The translations under genes were made by a program, and so were the position numbers. A stretch of DNA of 22,042 bases from a virus: positions 1 through 22,042 of IMG/VR virus record IMGVR_UViG_3300037635_001846. The stretch is one strand, 5' to 3'. This document shows positions 12,391 through 21,246 of the stretch, piece by piece. The notes under the pieces were generated by a model that saw nothing but the letters and a program-made list of their open reading frames with translations, ran no database searches and had not been told where the DNA came from. Position 1 is the stretch's first letter. Each line of letters opens with the position of its first letter.

Positions 12391-12425
12391 AAGATACACA
12401 ATAATAATAACAAAGAGGAGGCCAA

Positions 12426-12689
12426 ATGGCAACCACAACAAAATGTGATTCACAAGTGTTCAAGGATTGGAGTGAAAAAGTAGATAATATTTTATCACGG
12501 CTACCGAAAACTGACGTAAGTGGAGAACCACTAGAGTATCAAGACGATGCTTACCAAGAAGTTATGAAGATGTTGCAGCAGTGTTCAATGAACTTTGAAG
12601 ACATGCCTATATATCCAATTAACGAAACCATTGCTAATAAACTAATACAAGATCAACAGATGGGGGCCGATGAAAGACCTGATATTTAG
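12426..12689 (+). CDS. 87-residue acidic hypothetical protein
   Basis: A very strong ribosome site (AGAGGAGG at 12414-12421) precedes the ATG, so high expression is likely. The protein is mostly helical and acidic, with segments FKDWSEKVDNILSRLP, YQDDAYQEVMKMLQQC and INETIANKLIQDQQMG. No motif or family was recognised. It is the first gene behind the candidate promoter at 12363 and overlaps the following membrane mini-gene by 20 bases. Early host-takeover or regulatory roles are typical of such genes, but nothing in the sequence proves that. Confidence 0.75.
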   Translation: MATTTKCDSQVFKDWSEKVDNILSRLPKTDVSGEPLEYQDDAYQEVMKMLQQCSMNFEDMPIYPINETIANKLIQDQQMGADERPDI

Positions 12690-13985: not shown

Positions 13986-14237
13986 GTGGGCAAAGCTATT
14001 AAGAAAAGTAGTGAAGAAGCATTAAACCATGCGTTGGACAAGCTAGTGATGGTGTGTCCAAATAAGAAGACGTATGATGAGTTAACAAGTTTAATGTTTC
14101 AGTTGTATTGTGGAAATGACTTTGGTTTAGGAAATTTCAGTCTTTCTTTTCTCGACAAAATCGAGGATAGATGGCGATCAGGACGTAAATCGGTAGCGAA
14201 AGCTAAAGGTTTAACTCTGGTTGTTAAAAATGCTTAA
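13986..14237 (+). CDS. 83-residue hypothetical protein, GTG start
   Basis: The gene begins with GTG at 13986 behind AAGGA, 7 bases upstream. The protein looks helical: SSEEALNHALDKLVMVCPNKKTYDELTSLMFQLYCG followed by a Gly/Phe-rich turn and a basic tail (RWRSGRKSVAKAKG). No family was recognised. A separate promoter candidate lies at 13853. The stop codon is built into the left arm of the stem at 14236-14284, so folding may influence the end of translation and the start of the next gene. Confidence 0.65.
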   Translation: MGKAIKKSSEEALNHALDKLVMVCPNKKTYDELTSLMFQLYCGNDFGLGNFSLSFLDKIEDRWRSGRKSVAKAKGLTLVVKNA

Positions 14238-14284
14238 CCACGGTGTAATTTTTCCATATCGATATCTTTTCCCGCATCGTGGTT
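14236..14284 (+). promoter_or_regulatory. Intercistronic stem with palindromic loop
   Basis: AACCACGGTG (14236-14245) pairs with CATCGTGGTT (14275-14284), ten pairs with one G-U. The left arm contains the last two bases of the upstream stop codon and the right arm ends against the ATG at 14285. The loop includes the perfect palindrome ATATCGATAT (14256-14265). The downstream gene has no Shine-Dalgarno site, so the fold may control it. Confidence 0.5.
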
Positions 14285-14521
14285 ATGCAAATGAGTACCA
14301 AAAAAGCTAGGGGATTACTTAAAGATTCAATCATATTATTGGACCTGATGACAGGTGAGGATAGAATGAACTACCTTGAGCGCATGTGGAATTTGTATTT
14401 CAGAGTGTACGAGAAGAAATCTATTAGAGTTACAAGAAATAAAAAATCTAAAACTTTTTTAATGGATAAGAAGAAAGCCTATGACTTGTGCTCCCAGCTT
14501 ACTCAAATTTTTGGGCATTAA
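14285..14521 (+). CDS. 79-residue or shorter basic hypothetical protein
   Basis: Possible starts are GTG 14279, ATG 14285 and ATG 14291; 14285 is chosen because it follows the intercistronic stem directly, but none has a ribosome site. The protein is helical (ARGLLKDSIILLDLMTGEDRMNYLERMWNLYFRVY) with a lysine-rich centre (RVTRNKKSKTFLMDKKKAYDL). No known family was recognised. Its end overlaps the next reading frame by 41 bases if that gene uses its ATG. Confidence 0.6.
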   Translation: MQMSTKKARGLLKDSIILLDLMTGEDRMNYLERMWNLYFRVYEKKSIRVTRNKKSKTFLMDKKKAYDLCSQLTQIFGH

Positions 14522-14906
14522 ATTGAGTTTAGAGATTGTAAAACCTAAAGCTTTTGCAGAACAGCGATTGTTTCAGGCAATACTTGTCCAGGCGTTGGAG
14601 GACGCTGTAAATCCATCTGGTTTTAAGAAAGAGACATATTACAAGCATGATTCTCATAAGTGGTTTGTTAGTAATAGTATAGAATTTCAAGACATATGTT
14701 GGGGTGCTGACATGGATCCTGAGTTTGTACGTGGTGAGTATATGAAAATGGTAGATAGTGGAAAAATTTTTTTTACAAAATTACAGGTATCCTGGATTAA
14801 GTATCGAGATTTATATAAAAGGTATCGGGAGTGTAATACTAAGGAGGAAAGAAGAATTATTAAGAAATTGATATTGAAAGAGAATTTAAAAAGATTAGAG
14901 GACTAG
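14481..14906 (+). CDS. Conserved-looking marine-phage hypothetical protein
   Basis: The frame gives 141 residues from ATG 14481. A TTG at 14523, one base after the upstream stop, would give 127 residues starting SLEIVKPKAFAEQRLFQAILVQALEDAV. The latter start matches the protein style I recall for a family in marine phages, and the first 14 residues from the ATG look unlike it. Further segments are KKETYYKHDSHKWFV, FQDICWGADMDPEFVRGEYMKMV and WIKYRDLYKRYRECN. No enzyme motif is apparent and the function is unknown; the WIKYRDLYKRY part is strongly basic and aromatic and may bind nucleic acid. Confidence 0.75.
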   Translation: MTCAPSLLKFLGIKLSLEIVKPKAFAEQRLFQAILVQALEDAVNPSGFKKETYYKHDSHKWFVSNSIEFQDICWGADMDPEFVRGEYMKMVDSGKIFFTKLQVSWIKYRDLYKRYRECNTKEERRIIKKLILKENLKRLED

Positions 14907-15085
14907 TCATGGGGGTCGAATGTGTTTGACTCCTGGAGGAAAACATAGGGAGCAATTCCTCGAAAAACCTCCAGAAGTAATTAACCAATTGTGAATGAAC
15001 ACAGCTGAACTGTATCAGAATAACGGATACCGGACAATGGAAATATTTACTATATAGATTATCTAGACCCCTGAGCAATAAAAAG

Positions 15086-15099
15086 TACCCCCGGGGGTA
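15086..15099. repeat. 14-bp perfect C5G5-centred palindrome
   Basis: TACCCCCGGGGGTA is perfectly self-complementary. With no loop it is unlikely to be an RNA terminator, but it is a strong candidate for a protein binding or cruciform site in an otherwise AT-rich genome. Confidence 0.6.
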
Positions 15100-15106
15100 A
15101 AAGAGG

Positions 15107-15208
15107 TGTCCCTGCTGTCCCTGTAGACTATTATTCAATTATACCAACACTTCTAATCAATTTAGTACTGTCCCTGTGGTGTCCCTGTGGTGTCCCTAAG
15201 GGACACCA
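15107..15208. repeat. TGTCCCTG iteron-like array ending in a perfect hairpin
   Basis: TGTCCCTG occurs at 15107, 15116, 15169 and 15180, and TGTCCCTA at 15191; the last three are exactly 11 bases apart. The final copy is the left arm of a perfect dyad, TGGTGTCCCT (15188-15197), one A, AGGGACACCA (15199-15208). The 11-base spacing places copies about one helical turn apart, as expected for cooperative protein binding. Confidence 0.65.
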
Positions 15209-15267
15209 CTCTTGCGGGAACGCTATCGAAACTTTTTGGGGCTATTACTTTACGATGAAATAATCTA

Positions 15268-15273
15268 TATAAT
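15268..15273 (+). promoter_or_regulatory. Consensus -10 element six bases before an ATG
   Basis: TATAAT is a perfect -10. A TTACTT at 15245-15250, 17 bases upstream, is a poor -35. Transcription starting 6-8 bases downstream would begin at or next to the ATG at 15280, giving a leaderless message; the gene has no Shine-Dalgarno site. Confidence 0.4.
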
Positions 15274-15279
15274 AGAAAT

Positions 15280-15474
15280 ATGCGAAAACAATTATTTATG
15301 TTAGCTAAGGATAGAGTTAAAAAACTATTCCCTGGAAATAAGGAAAAACAAAAACTATATACTGATGAGTATGATAGTGCAAAAATACATATGTCTCATA
15401 CATCTGCTGATAGTTATGCAAGAGGTGAAGTGAGAAGAATATTTACACCAAAAAAACCTAAAGGTAGAAAGTAA
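15280..15474 (+). CDS. 64-residue basic hypothetical protein preceding TerS
   Basis: The protein is rich in Lys and Arg (KDRVKKLFPGNKEKQKLYTDEYD, and a tail FTPKKPKGRK). Its centre has DSAKIHMSHTSADSYARGEVRRIF. The stop and the TerS start share one base (TAATG), a sign of translational coupling. A DNA-binding or packaging-linked role would fit the charge and neighbour but is not shown by any motif. No family was recognised. The start is ATG 15280, just after a TATAAT element. Confidence 0.65.
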   Translation: MRKQLFMLAKDRVKKLFPGNKEKQKLYTDEYDSAKIHMSHTSADSYARGEVRRIFTPKKPKGRK

Positions 15475-16004
15475 TGCCTGGTGGACTTAAAAAGAAATCA
15501 TTAAGAACTGAATTAGATTTAACTCCAAAACAAAAAATGTTTGTTGAAATCTATGTTGCTGATTGGGGTAGCATAACACAAGCTGAAGCTCTTAAACGTG
15601 CAGGCTATGTTTGTACTAATGAAAAAGATTATGGATCTGTTGCATCTAGAATGTTATCTAGAAAACACAGTCCTCATATAGCAAACTACTTTGATAAGTT
15701 GTTTGAAAGAGAAGTAAAAAAATACACAAGTGACAACCTTAGAAGATATAAAAGGTTAGAAAGAATTGCTGACAAAGCAGAGAAAGAAAAACAATTCGCT
15801 GCTGCTATTAACGCTGAGTATAGATCTGGTCAATTGGCCGGTGCTTATGTTGATCGTAAAGAAGTAACTGTTAGTGGTTTGGAGGGTATGTCACGTGAGC
15901 AACTTGAAAAAAAGCTCGAGGAACTATCAAACAAGATCGATGGATTCAATGCCAAAACGATCGAAGTTGAGTCCGAAGACGTTACAGCAATTGAAGAGGG
16001 CTAG
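15474..16004 (+). CDS. terS: Terminase small subunit
   Basis: The 176-residue protein has the N-terminal pattern of small terminases: LTPKQKMFVEIYVADWGSITQAEALKRAGY at residues 16-45, a helix-turn-helix-like DNA-recognition region in which the phage protein binds the packaging site. A helical middle part (LRRYKRLERIADKAEKEKQFAAAINAEYRSGQLAGAY, 89-125) follows, and then a coiled-coil oligomerisation-like tail (SREQLEKKLEELSNKI, 140-155). Small terminases form rings that hand DNA to the large subunit. TerL lies about 3.8 kb downstream rather than next door. The gene starts one base inside the previous stop codon. Confidence 0.8.
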   Translation: MPGGLKKKSLRTELDLTPKQKMFVEIYVADWGSITQAEALKRAGYVCTNEKDYGSVASRMLSRKHSPHIANYFDKLFEREVKKYTSDNLRRYKRLERIADKAEKEKQFAAAINAEYRSGQLAGAYVDRKEVTVSGLEGMSREQLEKKLEELSNKIDGFNAKTIEVESEDVTAIEEG

Positions 16005-16426: not shown

Positions 16427-16834
16427 ATGTCTAATAAAAATGGGGAAACTAGGCTATGGCAAAAGGTAAAAAAAGGACTGACTGATTGCTTTCTAACTCG
16501 CGTAGAATCTAGCACAATCAATGGTATTCCTGACATTCATGCTGTAATGAGTAATGAAGTTTTTTGGATGGAATTAAAATCAGATTCGTTAAGTTATCCG
16601 AAGCTAAATAAGTGGCAGATTGTTTGGATCAACAAGTATATCATGGCTGGTGGTAAAGTTATTATCTTGGGTGAGACCCCTTTGAAGAGAACCCTTAAAC
16701 TGTACAGACCGGTGTCCGTTTTCACTGATGCTCGTTCCCTCGTCCCGTTTGCCTCGTTCTCGTTCCCGTTACAATGGCCACTGGTCCAGCGCAGGATGCT
16801 AACGGAGCTGGGATCTCCTTCAGAGGCAGCGTAG
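16427..16834 (+). CDS. VRR-NUC-like PD-(D/E)XK nuclease with repeat-derived C-terminal tail
   Basis: The 135-residue protein has the compact nuclease core of VRR-NUC / phage resolvase-like enzymes: GIPDIHAV (Asp36), FWMELKSD (Glu49, Lys51), the LNKWQIVWI helix with Gln64 and AGGKVIIL. Such enzymes cut branched or flap DNA and are often near terminase genes. After about residue 98 the protein enters DNA that carries the CTCGTT repeats, so its tail (SVFTDARSLVPFASFSFPLQWPLVQRRML) is read from CTCGTT units and a TGGCCACTG element. The final residues may therefore be recently acquired. An original end near residue 95 would still leave a complete nuclease core. Confidence 0.7.
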   Translation: MSNKNGETRLWQKVKKGLTDCFLTRVESSTINGIPDIHAVMSNEVFWMELKSDSLSYPKLNKWQIVWINKYIMAGGKVIILGETPLKRTLKLYRPVSVFTDARSLVPFASFSFPLQWPLVQRRMLTELGSPSEAA

Positions 16835-16848
16835 CTCTCGTTCTCGTG

Positions 16849-16894
16849 CCCTGGCCACTGATCTTTTCCCTCTTTGTTTGATCAGTGGCCTGGG
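16849..16894. repeat. Long inverted repeat with pyrimidine loop
   Basis: GGCCACTGATC (16853-16863) is perfectly complementary to GATCAGTGGCC (16880-16890), and beyond one T-T mismatch CCC (16849-16851) pairs with GGG (16892-16894). The 16-base loop TTTTCCCTCTTTGTTT is almost all pyrimidine. No T tract follows on either strand, so it is not an ordinary terminator. Confidence 0.75.
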
Positions 16895-17029
16895 GACCAG
16901 CAGCAGGTGAAGCTCTCGTTTCTCGTTCTCGTTTACTGGATAAATCTCGTTCTCGTTTACTGGCCACTGGTGAGCCCCCGCAGCGTCAGCTTCAGGGGGG
17001 TGAAGACTGGGATCAGGAGAACTTTGTGG

Positions 17030-17058
17030 TTGACAGGTATCCCATGATGTCGTATGGT
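17030..17058 (+). promoter_or_regulatory. Promoter copy A, sigma70-like
   Basis: TTGACA (17030-17035), a 17-base spacer and TATGGT (17053-17058) precede the 64-residue gene. The -35 matches consensus exactly. The element is 23/26 identical to copy B at 17271, including the spacer GGTATCCCAT. Confidence 0.7.
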
Positions 17059-17079
17059 CAGACAAACAAAGGAGAATAT

Positions 17080-17274
17080 ATGGCAATAGATTTCGATGCA
17101 CTGGATCTCGTTCGAGGCGAGAACAAATCTCGTTCTTACAACACTAAGTTAGATGGGCTCCAGCAGCAGGTGACTGAGCTCACCACGCTGGTAGCTCAGA
17201 TGGTAAAAGAACTTCCTATGGAAAAGAAATGGTCGTTTGAAGAAAGATTAAAAAAAATCAAAGAAAGGCCTTGA
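17080..17274 (+). CDS. 64-residue coiled-coil protein with repeat-encoded segment
   Basis: The ATG at 17080 has a good AAAGGAG ribosome site and a promoter 22 bases further up. The protein starts MAIDFDALDLVRGENKSRSYN, in which LV and SRS come from two CTCGTT units. A clear heptad helix (LDGLQQQVTELTTLVAQMVKEL, residues 24-45) and a charged tail EERLKKIKERP follow. The helix suggests self-association. No known family was recognised. The stop codon forms part of promoter copy B, so the gene and promoter are fused end to end. Confidence 0.65.
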   Translation: MAIDFDALDLVRGENKSRSYNTKLDGLQQQVTELTTLVAQMVKELPMEKKWSFEERLKKIKERP

Positions 17275-17299
17275 CAGGTATCCCATCGTGTCTTATATG
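17271..17299 (+). promoter_or_regulatory. Promoter copy B, sigma70-like
   Basis: TTGACA (17271-17276), a 17-base spacer and TATATG (17294-17299) lie directly upstream of the 61-residue gene and overlap the preceding stop codon. Near-identical to copy A. Expected transcription start is around 17306. Confidence 0.7.
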
Positions 17300-17327
17300 T
17301 AGTTCGTTAACCAAAGGAGAACTACAT
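17297..17327 (+). promoter_or_regulatory. Dyad covering the start codon, split by the local promoter
   Basis: ATGTAGTTC (17297-17305) pairs perfectly with GAACTACAT (17319-17327) around a 13-base loop. The loop contains most of the AAAGGAG ribosome site, and the right arm includes the first two bases of the ATG at 17326. The left arm overlaps the -10 of promoter B, so it is transcribed only in read-through RNA. Confidence 0.6.
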
Positions 17328-17511
17328 GATAAGTAAAAAACTAATACAGCAGATGAACAATTATTATGATCAAGAGTATATCAAAGATGGATCTAAGCCC
17401 AAAGAAGATAAACCTGAAGAAGGCAAAGTATACGCACTGACCGGTGGCTCGGGCACGCGCTGCATTGCCAACGGAAATACATGGAAAGAGTCAGAGGTGA
17501 AGGATGACTGA
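17326..17511 (+). CDS. 61-residue hydrophilic hypothetical protein
   Basis: A strong AAAGGAG site and promoter B precede the gene. The N-terminus is a charged helix (MISKKLIQQMNNYYDQEYIK). A lysine/glutamate/proline-rich linker follows (GSKPKEDKPEEGK), then a short segment YALTGGSGTRCIANGNTWKE that resembles a small beta hairpin. No family was recognised. It overlaps the next gene by 8 bases, suggesting coupled translation. Translation may be controlled by the dyad around its start codon. Confidence 0.65.
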   Translation: MISKKLIQQMNNYYDQEYIKDGSKPKEDKPEEGKVYALTGGSGTRCIANGNTWKESEVKDD

Positions 17512-17866
17512 TGAACTGAAGGAGTGGTACCTAATGCCAAGCATCAAGGAATGCCTCGCTGAGTATCAGAAGCAGGATATAGGATTAATTGCAGACATTG
17601 CTAAGCACGGCTGCTCAGGAGGTGTCGCTGGTATTACGTATTACTCAGAAACAATTGCGTTTCATGATCACCATCAGGAGGAGATCTGGCAGCTGGTCCA
17701 GGATCACGCGGATGCAGCTGGCCTGAAGAAGGGTGAGTTTCTACAACACATATCCGAAGACCCAACCTCGCTTACTGGACTAGTTAATGATCTCGTTTGG
17801 TGGACGGTTAAAGTTCGGGCCCAGGAGCTGCATGAACTGGTACCTGCAGCTGGAGCTTCCATATGA
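17504..17866 (+). CDS. 120-residue conserved-style phage protein (HGCxGGVxGxTYY type)
   Basis: The protein has a pattern I recall from phage hypothetical proteins: IADIAKHGCSGGVAGITYYSETIAFHDHHQEEIWQLVQDHA followed by a helical part. This conserved block (about residues 28-68) suggests a true, shared family, possibly one of the DUF72xx group, with unknown function; the His/Asp-rich FHDHHQEEIW could bind metal. GGTGAAGG lies just before ATG 17504. One CTCGTT unit at 17792 is read here as part of NDLVWW, and a near-copy at 17766 as TSLTG. It ends with an ATGA overlap with the membrane mini-gene. Confidence 0.7.
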   Translation: MTDELKEWYLMPSIKECLAEYQKQDIGLIADIAKHGCSGGVAGITYYSETIAFHDHHQEEIWQLVQDHADAAGLKKGEFLQHISEDPTSLTGLVNDLVWWTVKVRAQELHELVPAAGASI

Positions 17867-17964
17867 GTTTCGTTGTCGTTTGGCTGTGCCTTTTGTTTAT
17901 GTTTCCTGGTATCACATTAGCTGGCACTGGGATCCTGATGCTCTCGCTCGTTGGTATTCTTTGA
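17863..17964 (+). CDS. 33-residue hydrophobic membrane mini-protein
   Basis: The gene shares ATGA with the preceding stop and has GGAG 8 bases upstream, strong signs of translational coupling. The peptide MSFVVVWLCLLFMF, then PGITLAGTGILMLSLVGIL, has two hydrophobic stretches separated by Pro-Gly and fits a one- or two-span membrane protein, perhaps holin-like. The VV and LV residues come partly from CTCGTT-related units (17947 and the degenerate TTCGTTGTCGTT at 17868-17879). Function unknown. Confidence 0.55.
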   Translation: MSFVVVWLCLLFMFPGITLAGTGILMLSLVGIL

Positions 17965-18163
17965 TGCACCACATGTCGTCTCGTTTAGAAAGGTGAGCCC
18001 CCTGCGCAGAAGCTACCGATGGAGTGAAGGACTGGCGCTGGAAACTCTGGTGGTAAAGCTCGGTCTCGTTTGAAGTAATGGATAATGTGGTACATAGACT
18101 ACTATGGAGTTTGGCACCCAGCAGGAGAAACTGCTGTGGTATGAAGAATGGTAAGGTTGCTAG
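17965..18163. other. Remnant-like stretch with a diverged repeat copy
   Basis: No solid gene. It includes the second GGTGAGCCCCC unit (17992-18002), CTCGTT at 17980 and 18065, and three mutually overlapping mini-frames between 18078 and 18173 (for example one reading MWYIDYYGVWHPAGETAVV). The mix looks like decayed small genes. Confidence 0.45.
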
Positions 18164-18248: not shown

Positions 18249-18677
18249 ATGGGATTAGATCAACACGCACACCTTCGAGGTCAAAAGGTAGATTGGGAAC
18301 AATACTATTCTGATGATGATTACGGAGATAAAGCAAATGTTTTTGTGTGGAGAAAACACGCAAGACTTCAACAGTTCATGGCAAAGAAGTGGGACGAACA
18401 AAACTCACACCATAAACATGAGGGAATGCTCTCAAGTTTAGGTTTTAATTCTGATTGTGATGCCCCTGTATATATAACTCAAGAGGTGGCTAAAGAGTTA
18501 GCCGAACAAATACAAGAGGGCTTTAAGGATTACAAAGCAGAAGATGGATTTTTCTGGGGGCAACAGTTCCAAGAGGAAAGCGTCAAGGAGTACAAGGAAC
18601 AAGATATCAAGTTCCTTAAATTCTGTGAGCAATCTATCAACGAGAGTAAGGTCGTTGAATATTGGTGTAGTTGGTAA
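18249..18677 (+). CDS. GLDQ-type phage protein (sometimes mislabelled phosphoglycerate kinase)
   Basis: The 142-residue protein begins MGLDQHAHLRG, then has VWRKHARLQQFM, VYITQEVAKELAEQIQEG, DGFFWGQQFQEE and a DIKFLKFCEQSI...VEYWCSW end. This order matches a widespread phage family that begins MGLD and contains WRKH and FFWG blocks. Databases sometimes call it phosphoglycerate kinase, but it lacks any kinase feature and its function is unknown. A strong AAAGGAG site lies before the ATG. Its stop and the next start share one base (TAATG). Confidence 0.8.
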   Translation: MGLDQHAHLRGQKVDWEQYYSDDDYGDKANVFVWRKHARLQQFMAKKWDEQNSHHKHEGMLSSLGFNSDCDAPVYITQEVAKELAEQIQEGFKDYKAEDGFFWGQQFQEESVKEYKEQDIKFLKFCEQSINESKVVEYWCSW

Positions 18678-18877
18678 TGGCTACTGATAAAATTAACGAG
18701 GCGACAGATGTCGCCTCGTCTCGTTCTCGTGGTGGAAATAAGAAAGATAATAAAACTAAACAACAGCTGGGGACGGCACGGGAAAAACTTTTCACCGAAA
18801 AAATAAAAAGACTATTTAATCTATTAGAGGATAATAATGCTAATACTACTATTGCTAGACCTAATAAACTTAATTAA
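18677..18877 (+). CDS. 66-residue hydrophilic protein containing a hairpin and CTCGTT copy in its DNA
   Basis: ATG 18677 shares a base with the previous stop. The protein starts MATDKINEATDVASSRSRGG, where ASSRSR is read from the CTCGTCTCGTTCTCG element and NEATDVA from the perfect inverted repeat 18696-18719. The rest is lysine-rich and helical (TAREKLFTEKIKRLFNLLED). The real, original protein may be only the C-terminal part, with the N-terminal half contributed by inserted repeat DNA. No family was recognised. Confidence 0.6.
   Translation: MATDKINEATDVASSRSRGGNKKDNKTKQQLGTAREKLFTEKIKRLFNLLEDNNANTTIARPNKLN
18696..18719. repeat. Perfect 11-bp inverted repeat inside a coding region
   Basis: ACGAGGCGACA (18696-18706) and TGTCGCCTCGT (18709-18719) are perfectly complementary with a 2-base centre. 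The right arm runs directly into CTCGTCTCGTTCTCG, an outlying copy of the repeat-island hexamer. Confidence 0.7.
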
Positions 18878-18968: not shown

Positions 18969-19322
18969 ATGCAAAGAGCAAAAAAGCTAAAGCAAGACGA
19001 AAAAAAAATAGTCCTAGCTTATGCAACACTAAAGCTAAAAGCAAATAGACTTAACAAAGAGTTAGACAGTATGAAAGAGCATGTTGTTAATCTATTTGAT
19101 AGAACAAACCAAAATTTAATTATTGTTCAAGACGAGCATGGAAATAATTTTGGATTGCAAAAGATTAACAGAAAGAGAAAATCTTTTGATAAAGATAAAT
19201 TTAAATTAAGTCATTTAGATTTATGGAATGCACATCAAAAAGAAATTGCTTATTGTGAGTATAAAGCAATAGGTGGTATTAATGGATTGCAAGAACCTAG
19301 CGAGGTATCAAATGCCCAATAA
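18969..19322 (+). CDS. 117-residue lysine-rich coiled-coil hypothetical protein
   Basis: AGAGG lies 7 bases before the ATG. The N-terminal half is a charged helix (KKLKQDEKKIVLAYATLKLKANRLNKELDSMKEHVVNLF). A short beta part follows (NLIIVQDEHGNNFGLQKINRKRKSFDKDKFKLSHLDLW). The order (coiled coil, then a strand pair, then FDKDKF) is reminiscent of the 4849-5388 protein, but no sequence identity is claimed. The function is unknown; a DNA-replication or host-nuclease role would be a guess. It overlaps the next gene by 11 bases. Confidence 0.7.
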   Translation: MQRAKKLKQDEKKIVLAYATLKLKANRLNKELDSMKEHVVNLFDRTNQNLIIVQDEHGNNFGLQKINRKRKSFDKDKFKLSHLDLWNAHQKEIAYCEYKAIGGINGLQEPSEVSNAQ

Positions 19323-19615: not shown

Positions 19616-19767
19616 GTATCTATCACACACCTATAGCAAGGCTCATAATCAATCTCATAATCGTTTTTAAAATTGCAGGTATCAGGGTTCGCGTTGCCAG
19701 GCTAGGTTTTTTGAGGCGAAAGGGTTTACAAAGTAGGATATACAAATATACTAGGGTCCCAAACGAG
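19616..19767. other. Leader region before TerL
   Basis: About 150 bases without a clear gene. The TerL frame is open back to TTG 19711, but the residues there are basic and irregular. AGGCTCATAATCAA at 19639-19652 is repeated exactly inside TerL at 19981-19994. No consensus promoter was found. Confidence 0.4.
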
Positions 19768-21246
19768 ATGAAAATAGAAAACTTAACTGAAGATGAATTA
19801 AAAGATATTATTCTGAAAAAACAGTTAGAGTGGATCAAGCTCTGCCAGGATAATTTTTTAATTTTTGCAGAGTCTGTGTGGCAAGACTTTATCTATCGTA
19901 AAACAAAGGACCCAAAGAAGTATGGGCACCATCAAATTATTGCTGAATCGTTTCAAGATATTGCAGATGGTGATGCAAAGAGGCTCATAATCAACATGCC
20001 ACCACGTCATACTAAATCTGAATTCGCATCTTATTTATTCCCTGCTTGGTATATTGGTAAGTATCCAAAGAAAAAAATTATGCAGGTATCACACAATGCT
20101 GAACTTGCTTCAAGGTTTGGTAGCAAAGTTCGTAACTTAATGAACACCAAGGAGTATAAAGAAATCTTCGGAAGTGTTACACTTCGAGAAGACAGTAAAG
20201 CAAAAGGCAGGTGGGAAACCAATCACGGTGGTGAATACTTTGCAGCGGGTGTAGGCGGATCTATCACAGGTCGAGGGGCCGATTTGCTTATTATTGACGA
20301 TCCACATACGGAACAAGATTCCTTGTCCGATACAGCGATGGAACGTGCTTACGAATGGTACAGTTCAGGACCCAGACAGCGTTTACAACCAGGAGGAAGA
20401 ATCTTAGTTGTTATGACTCGTTGGGCTACTGATGATCTTACAGGAAGGTTGGTCAAAGCACAGAGTGGTACTAAAGCAGACCAATGGGATGTAATTTCTT
20501 TTCCTGCAATCATGCCAGATGATAAACCCGTATGGCCTGAGTATTGGGGTAAAGAAGATTTAGATTCTGTTAAAGCCTCAATCTCAATGAAAAATTGGAA
20601 TGCACAATATATGCAGGACCCAACCTCAGAAGAGGGTGCAATTATAAAAAGGGAATGGTGGCAGGATTACGATAAAGAAAATTTACCAAAGTTACTTCAT
20701 GTCATACAAAGTTATGATACTGCATTTTCTAAAAAAGAAACTGCAGATTACTCAGCTATTACCACCTGGGGGGTATTTGAACCTATAGAAGGTTACGAAA
20801 AAGCAATTATATTATTAGATGCACAAAAGGGACGTTATGATTTTCCAGATTTAAAAAATGTTGCACTAGAGCAATATCATTACTGGGAACCGGAAACTGT
20901 AATCATTGAAGCAAAAGCTAGTGGTACACCATTAATTCACGAACTTCGTAGAGCAGGAATTCCTGTAATTGATTATGTTCCAGCTAGAGGACGAGATAAG
21001 CATACTAGAATAAATAGCTGTGCACCTGTATTTGAATCTGGTATGGTGTGGGCACCTTTAGAGGAACACTGGGCACAGGAAGTAATTGAGGAATGTGCAG
21101 CGTTTCCTAATGGTCAGTATGATGACTATGTTGATTCTATGACCCAAGCTGTGTTAAGATATCGACAAGGTGGATTTGTTTCTACGTACTCGGACGATTG
21201 GGACGACCCACCAATGAAATTAGAAAAAGATTATAAATATTATTAG
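19768..21246 (+). CDS. terL: Terminase large subunit (packaging ATPase-nuclease)
   Basis: From ATG 19768 the protein has 492 residues. The ATPase part has a Walker A variant PPRHTKSE (78-85), an adenine-side QVSHNAELASRFG segment, Walker B LLIIDDPH (173-180, Asp177-Asp178) and the coupling motif TRW (217-219). The RNase-H-like nuclease part has SYDTAFS (Asp317), VIIEAKASG (Glu381) and YDDYVDS (Asp452-Asp456). This is the complete two-domain motor that pumps and cuts phage DNA. The PPRHTKSE loop, lacking the usual GKT, is common in this branch. The start is uncertain, since no good ribosome site precedes it, and an upstream TTG at 19711 would add 19 basic residues. Confidence 0.93.
   Translation: MKIENLTEDELKDIILKKQLEWIKLCQDNFLIFAESVWQDFIYRKTKDPKKYGHHQIIAESFQDIADGDAKRLIINMPPRHTKSEFASYLFPAWYIGKYPKKKIMQVSHNAELASRFGSKVRNLMNTKEYKEIFGSVTLREDSKAKGRWETNHGGEYFAAGVGGSITGRGADLLIIDDPHTEQDSLSDTAMERAYEWYSSGPRQRLQPGGRILVVMTRWATDDLTGRLVKAQSGTKADQWDVISFPAIMPDDKPVWPEYWGKEDLDSVKASISMKNWNAQYMQDPTSEEGAIIKREWWQDYDKENLPKLLHVIQSYDTAFSKKETADYSAITTWGVFEPIEGYEKAIILLDAQKGRYDFPDLKNVALEQYHYWEPETVIIEAKASGTPLIHELRRAGIPVIDYVPARGRDKHTRINSCAPVFESGMVWAPLEEHWAQEVIEECAAFPNGQYDDYVDSMTQAVLRYRQGGFVSTYSDDWDDPPMKLEKDYKYY

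Follow-up and report, generated by a model that had tools for sequence, protein, structure and literature searches.

An oriented, conserved CTCGTT array and a covarying hairpin between the terminase genes of a pelagiphage, with a possible pac-like role

Introduction

The pac site of phage P1 carries several short hexamers, which are Dam sites, around the cut site in about 160 bp. In phage T7, the short-repeat arrays SRL and SRR lie near the genome ends, where they flank the terminal repeats, and cyanobacterial genomes contain dispersed short tandemly repeated repetitive (STRR) sequences. At the RNA level, there are alphaproteobacterial small RNAs that carry anti-Shine-Dalgarno CCUCC loops. The pac site of phage SPP1 contains three sets of direct repeats at terS; its boxA is absent in the SPP1-like phage SF6, which has a different repeat pair there, and the DNA-binding domain of SF6 TerS shows little sequence specificity on DNA (PMC4737164). 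Here, a hexamer array between terS and terL of a marine phage is described and compared with these systems. No account of such arrays was found in the literature searched, and the main text of the main genome survey of this phage group is silent on them (PMC9599517).

The CTCGTT island and its genomic context

The window, the whole stretch of DNA analyzed, is a virus contig of 22,042 bases, the full length of its record. It is an HTVC023P-type pelagiphage, a virus of SAR11-type marine bacteria, whose terL and DNA polymerase are 69.7% and 61.6% identical to those of Pelagibacter phage HTVC023P. The genes are arranged in the order terS, a conserved small ORF, a small nuclease gene, the CTCGTT island with several small ORFs, and terL. 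These gene matches place the island between terS and terL, as a preliminary description had proposed.

15474-16004, plus strand: terS, terminase small subunit (phrog_51, E=1e-11; Pfam PF03592 Terminase_2, 27.4 bits against a cut-off of 26.1)
16427-16834, plus strand: small nuclease gene, weakly Hjc-like (phrog_2165, E=1.9e-9; phrog_93, E=1.3e-6)
17030-17058, plus strand: sigma-70-like promoter TTGACA-17-TATGGT before ORF 17080 (17027-17064 conserved at 0.884)
17080-17274, plus strand: small ORF with CTCGTT at 17107 and 17129
17504-17866, plus strand: DUF7222 ORF with CTCGTT at 17792 (Pfam PF23864, E=3e-12)
17863-17964, plus strand: 33-codon hydrophobic ORF with CTCGTT at 17947 (read from the sequence)
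19711-21246, plus strand: terL, terminase large subunit (phrog_38, E=2.4e-119; TIGR01630; 69.7% identity to HTVC023P terL)

The Pfam Hjc match of the nuclease gene (E=0.018) is below the cut-off, and PDB sequence searches with TerS and the nuclease returned no useful relative. Close relatives either carry the DUF7222 gene or lack it cleanly (L005, L007, L018, L026, L034, L038 and L044 are without it), which indicates that the terS-terL interval swaps accessory genes. The repeated elements and diverged duplicates noticed previously were recovered: TGGCCACTG is present three times, and the promoter-like TTGACAGGTATCCCAT is repeated at 17030 and about 17275. The promoter-like TTGACA elements at 17030-17064 and about 17275-17300 also share an ATCCCAT/ATGGGAT word near the -10 region, which is similar in other lineages and is a possible operator.

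The window has 17 exact copies of CTCGTT on its plus strand and 4 on its minus strand. Between 16731 and 18070, 15 copies lie on the plus strand and 0 on the minus strand, starting at 16731, 16753, 16759, 16837, 16915, 16922, 16928, 16946, 16952, 17107, 17129, 17792, 17947, 17980 and 18065. The earlier count of at least 15 copies, in intergenic DNA and at least three genes, is thus correct. With Markov models of order 0-3, for which the window served as training sequence, 0.09-0.42 copies are expected in this range, so that the hexamer is far more frequent than by chance. No non-simple hexamer exceeds 7 copies in any other sampled 1,340-base stretch of the window; the strongest hexamer in the control stretches of the window is TGTCCC, with five copies in 14000-15300. 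The GC content of the island, also noted previously to be raised, is 0.42-0.51 compared to about 0.35 for the window. A blastn comparison of the island with 50,697 phage records gave no match.

16731-16764, plus strand: CTCGTT units 1-3 (16731, 16753, 16759), inside the 3' tail of the nuclease gene, the first three of the array
16837-16842, plus strand: unit 4, overlapping the 5' edge of a hairpin (see below)
16915-16957, plus strand: units 5-9 (16915, 16922, 16928, 16946, 16952); columns 0.77-1.00 versus a spacer mean of 0.58
17947-18070, plus strand: units at 17947, 17980 and 18065; unit columns 0.973 versus 0.805
18720-18725, plus strand: further unit in ORF 18677-18877, beyond the range described previously; 0.969 versus 0.872

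Overall, CTCGTT is carried by the nuclease tail, ORF 17080-17274, ORF 17504-17866, the 33-codon ORF 17863-17964 and ORF 18677-18877.

Conservation of the units among relatives

An exact 18-mer from the island is present in 41 further viral contigs, all of which (41/41) align to the window flanks. The search of relatives suggested by the preliminary description thus located the hexamer at this position; one relative of 58,127 bases, for example, has 19 of its 27 genome-wide copies inside a single 1.65-kb island there. Across about 50 distinct relatives the CTCGTT copies are about 94-99% conserved, compared to 58% for noncoding spacers. For noncoding units, column conservation is 0.937 versus 0.581 for spacers outside the hairpin (49 distinct relatives, p=1e-12).

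Since an alignment may favour repeats, coding copies were checked separately, BLAST-aligned in conserved genes. The unit columns of ORF 17080 are conserved at 0.99 versus 0.834, and third codon positions in the nuclease tail at 0.955 inside units versus 0.746 outside (p=0.006). The seven downstream copies have an observed conservation of 0.971 against a random-placement mean of 0.832 (P=1e-4). Among the controls, the reverse copy at 18639 shows no special conservation and two positions of the forward CTCGTT within terL are variable (0.76 and 0.74); the reverse copy at 18695 is conserved (0.95 versus 0.877), but lies within a terminator-like inverted repeat. The CTCGTT units are selected as nucleotide sequence, in whatever gene or spacer they lie. 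Despite this conservation, copy number and modules turn over: the upstream block holds 5-14 copies in different relatives, and L014, L028 and L036 each harbour an inserted module of about 100 bases that bears further repeats.

A covarying hairpin within the island

An RNAalifold long-range fold was run on the whole region; the analysis of structure centred on one hairpin.

16842-16901, plus strand: covarying 19-bp hairpin, most likely RNA (16/19 pairs with compensatory changes)
16864-16878, plus strand: hairpin loop UUUUCCCUCUUUGUU, near-invariant
12409-12418, plus strand: Shine-Dalgarno AACAAAGAGG of ORF 12426-12689, complementary to the hairpin loop
18954-18963, plus strand: Shine-Dalgarno AACAAAGAGG of ORF 18969-19322, complementary to the hairpin loop

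Over 25 distinct sequences, 93.4% of cells are paired and 16 of the 19 pairs have changed on both sides; the covariation score was reached by 0 of 500 shuffles, and no slide comes near it. The stem varies while the loop is nearly invariant. The pairs include 33 G-U and 0 A-C, and because of this the folded molecule is the plus strand, most likely as RNA. A DNA cruciform as the reason for the hairpin was rejected on the same asymmetry. The hairpin model R1 (68 bits) matches five of six large contigs of the CTCGTT lineage and has no significant match in 78 loci of other lineages; an Rfam search of the island returned none at gathering score (best E=0.55). The hairpin is probably a separate, RNA-level element within the island.

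The reverse complement of loop positions 16869-16878 is AACAAAGAGG; these ten bases are therefore complementary to the Shine-Dalgarno sequences of ORFs 12426 and 18969. That of ORF 18969 is kept in most relatives, and only 0-2 ATG starts per genome carry AACAAAGAGG. Loop and target are both nearly invariant, with few variants and none that compensate: in L008 and L488 a change in one is not matched by the other, and one or both targets are absent from some genomes. As loop and target variants fail to compensate each other, it can only be hypothesized that the loop regulates translation via Shine-Dalgarno pairing. The hairpin is a candidate for a regulatory RNA of the phage, for which two targets can be named.

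Alternative words at the terS-terL locus of sister lineages

Several hundred loci, each bearing terL or terS, were fetched for comparison. Of 147 loci, 121 have a nuclease homologue upstream of terL and in the same orientation. The small nuclease gene near terS is unannotated in HTVC027P, 023Pt_psg01 and DSL-LC04 (L046, L047 and L048). In the lineage of the window, CTCGTT is enriched between the nuclease gene and terL, with 6-21 copies, down to 85% terL identity. The same interval holds CCCGTT/CTCGTT in L300, TTCCCAT in L320 and L323, TCCATT in L334 and L332, GCTTG in HTVC027P and L271, and GCTCG in 023Pt_psg01, L212 and L249. Steps of a single transition connect CTCGTT, CCCGTT, CCCATT and TCCATT, suggesting that they belong to one family of sites that drifts.

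A significant hexamer was found between nuclease and terL in 38 of 73 dereplicated loci, compared to a significant control window in 4 of 60; the nuclease-terL region outscores the control window in 40 of 60 loci (p=2e-5). Across loci, units are biased 491 to 52 toward the terL strand, the period at which they recur depends on the lineage (about 4 to 10 bases), and 68 of 73 loci have a higher GC content there than elsewhere in the locus. The GCTTG units of the HTVC027P lineage are conserved at 0.948 versus 0.626 for the rest. HTVC023P and its close kin mostly have no significant short unit between nuclease and terL; HTVC023P carries longer repeated blocks at the terS-terL locus.

These alternative words also bear on an explanation offered previously, namely that CTCGTT could spread into coding DNA because it is open in all six reading frames. 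The openness itself is real, but 56% of all hexamers are likewise open and the HTVC027P lineage uses GCTTGA, which contains the stop TGA, at the same locus, so that six-frame openness has no explanatory value.

Several further features were observed in the interval. Words enriched there in every lineage were considered, but they mainly contain CpG and were read as composition; CGCG, GCGC and GCGAC are relatively enriched compared to the rest of the locus in every lineage. L462 and L464 carry 15 copies of TGAGTA, with no reverse copy, in the same interval as CTCGTT. HTVC027P-type pelagiphages contain the Rfam Flavobacterium-1 RNA (RF02976, about 90 bits against a cut-off of 58.9) between terS and terL, at positions and on strands that differ between genomes:

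L046 4254-4374, minus strand: Flavobacterium-1 RNA (RF02976)
L063 7699-7816, plus strand: Flavobacterium-1 RNA (RF02976)
L068 5485-5606, plus strand: Flavobacterium-1 RNA (RF02976)

The minus-strand genes gp33 and gp34 of HTVC027P (L046 3251-4171) lie among the GCTTG arrays. Their expression at 6-9 h after infection groups them in a separate cluster (PMC12753301), which is consistent with self-promoted cassettes in the terS-terL interval.

Possible roles of the array

The observations to be accounted for are the clustering and strand bias of the units, their restriction to one locus, their conservation against drifting spacers and the lineage-specific replacement of the word. The units are probably an oriented, cis-acting array of recognition sites. 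As the array sits in the packaging module, our best, still tentative guess for its role is one similar to pac. The sites would be asymmetric with a core of about YTCGTT, and would be read by a packaging-module protein that recognizes specific sequence, most probably the small terminase and perhaps also the adjacent nuclease. Packaging of the concatemer would start in this diffuse pac-like region and proceed with polarity toward terL, and reader and word would change together between lineages. In line with a pac site, the array lies at the terminase genes, between terS/nuclease and terL, and consists of repeated sites under sequence constraint. Confidence is held down because the contig ends show no terminus and the word does not track TerS specifically. 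Contig-end mapping detected no fixed genome end or terminal repeat; the ends are scattered apart from a loose grouping at 16761-16808, which may also stem from assembly breaks at repeats. The similarity of units follows distance in the nuclease (partial r 0.26) more closely than distance in terS (0.09). The partial correlation of the word with TerS, nuclease and TerL distances was weak throughout, was highest for the nuclease, which is the physical neighbour of the array, and singled out no reader. The units also extend across several genes and 1.3-2 kb, a wide region for a pac site. The lineage-dependent period of the units, the mostly missing short unit in HTVC023P and its close kin, and the low sequence specificity of the SF6 TerS domain likewise speak against a pac-like role.

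After the pac-like reading, an RNA-level role ranks next, followed by an origin and then by neutral turnover. The less likely RNA-level account supposes that a plus-strand read-through transcript of the nuclease gene presents CUCGUU sites to an RNA-binding protein and that the hairpin is part of it, its anti-Shine-Dalgarno loop repressing translation of ORFs 18969 and 12426. The plus-strand-only covariation of the hairpin and the complementarity of its loop to the Shine-Dalgarno of two window genes, that of ORF 18969 in most relatives, would fit, as would the plus-strand orientation of the nuclease gene in all 121 loci in which it was found, which always puts the first array in its sense transcript. 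Yet the 78 loci of other lineages lack a significant match to the hairpin model although arrays are present, the later arrays of HTVC027P lie among the minus-strand genes gp32-gp34, and CTCGTT stays conserved in sequences that have lost its pairing in the outer stem (pair 5-63 is unpaired in 13/25); the missing co-change in L008 and L488 and the absence of targets from some genomes also count against it. That the units are iteron-like initiator sites of a replication origin is improbable: direct repeats do cluster at one place per genome, and HTVC023P has its longer blocks at this very locus, but a search of GC and AT skew revealed no origin. GC skew, followed in the window and in 40-kb stretches of HTVC023P and HTVC027P, does not switch at the locus and follows the coding strand, and the array has raised GC with no adjoining AT-rich stretch, unlike an iteron origin.

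The preliminary description had favoured an expanding or recombination-prone repeat family. In part this holds, as copy number varies, the module in L014, L028 and L036 bears repeats, the DUF7222 gene comes and goes and the word differs between lineages, all of which would suit a neutral or selfish expansion at a site where recombination often exchanges cassettes of accessory genes. Such an expansion is nevertheless improbable too as the main account: orthologous copies are held site by site far above the spacers and the neighbouring sequence, synonymous sites included, which contradicts free spread into coding DNA, and every island copy is on one strand. A very improbable alternative is that the repeats encode useful residues. 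The nuclease tail is indeed a conserved peptide (pN/pS 0.56 over the tail), and the possibility raised previously that relatives keep the same residues applies there in part. Most copies, however, are noncoding or in other genes and frames, and synonymous positions within units are held; for the noncoding copies, protein-level constraint is refuted.

Returning to the pac-like array, a broader and rather unlikely proposal is that, in this abundant group of marine phages, a fast-evolving code in the packaging block has its recognition word rewritten between lineages (CTCGTT, CCCGTT, CCCATT, TCCATT, GCTTG, GCTCG) while position and strand bias persist, and that among the sites of the CTCGTT lineage there is a hairpin that would repress chosen phage genes via an anti-Shine-Dalgarno loop. 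The locus is in any case a specific candidate with several natural word variants, so that the reader protein may be found by matching words to proteins.

Comparison with known systems

The hairpin resembles alphaproteobacterial small RNAs in that a stem-loop shows a pyrimidine loop complementary to Shine-Dalgarno sequences. It differs in being phage-encoded, in its loop CCUCUUUGUU and in lacking an Rfam match at gathering score, and is a candidate RNA. Like the STRR sequences, the array consists of short units with lineage-specific words; unlike them, CTCGTT keeps to a single interval and is conserved at each of its sites. As with SRL and SRR of T7, its short units are close to the packaging region and vary from one related phage to another; in contrast to T7, neither a terminal repeat nor a fixed end was detected. 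A cluster of hexamers that would serve in recognition for packaging recalls P1 pac, but CTCGTT is non-palindromic and not a Dam site. As regards SPP1 and SF6, the sites here are downstream of terS and the nuclease gene and extend over 1.3-2 kb and several genes. The likeness of this putative pac-like region to their pac sites lies in sets of direct repeats (boxes A, B and C) at the terminase genes that overlap promoters and coding sequence, in a repeat sequence that differs at the same place between related phages, and in a TerS that belongs to Pfam Terminase_2.
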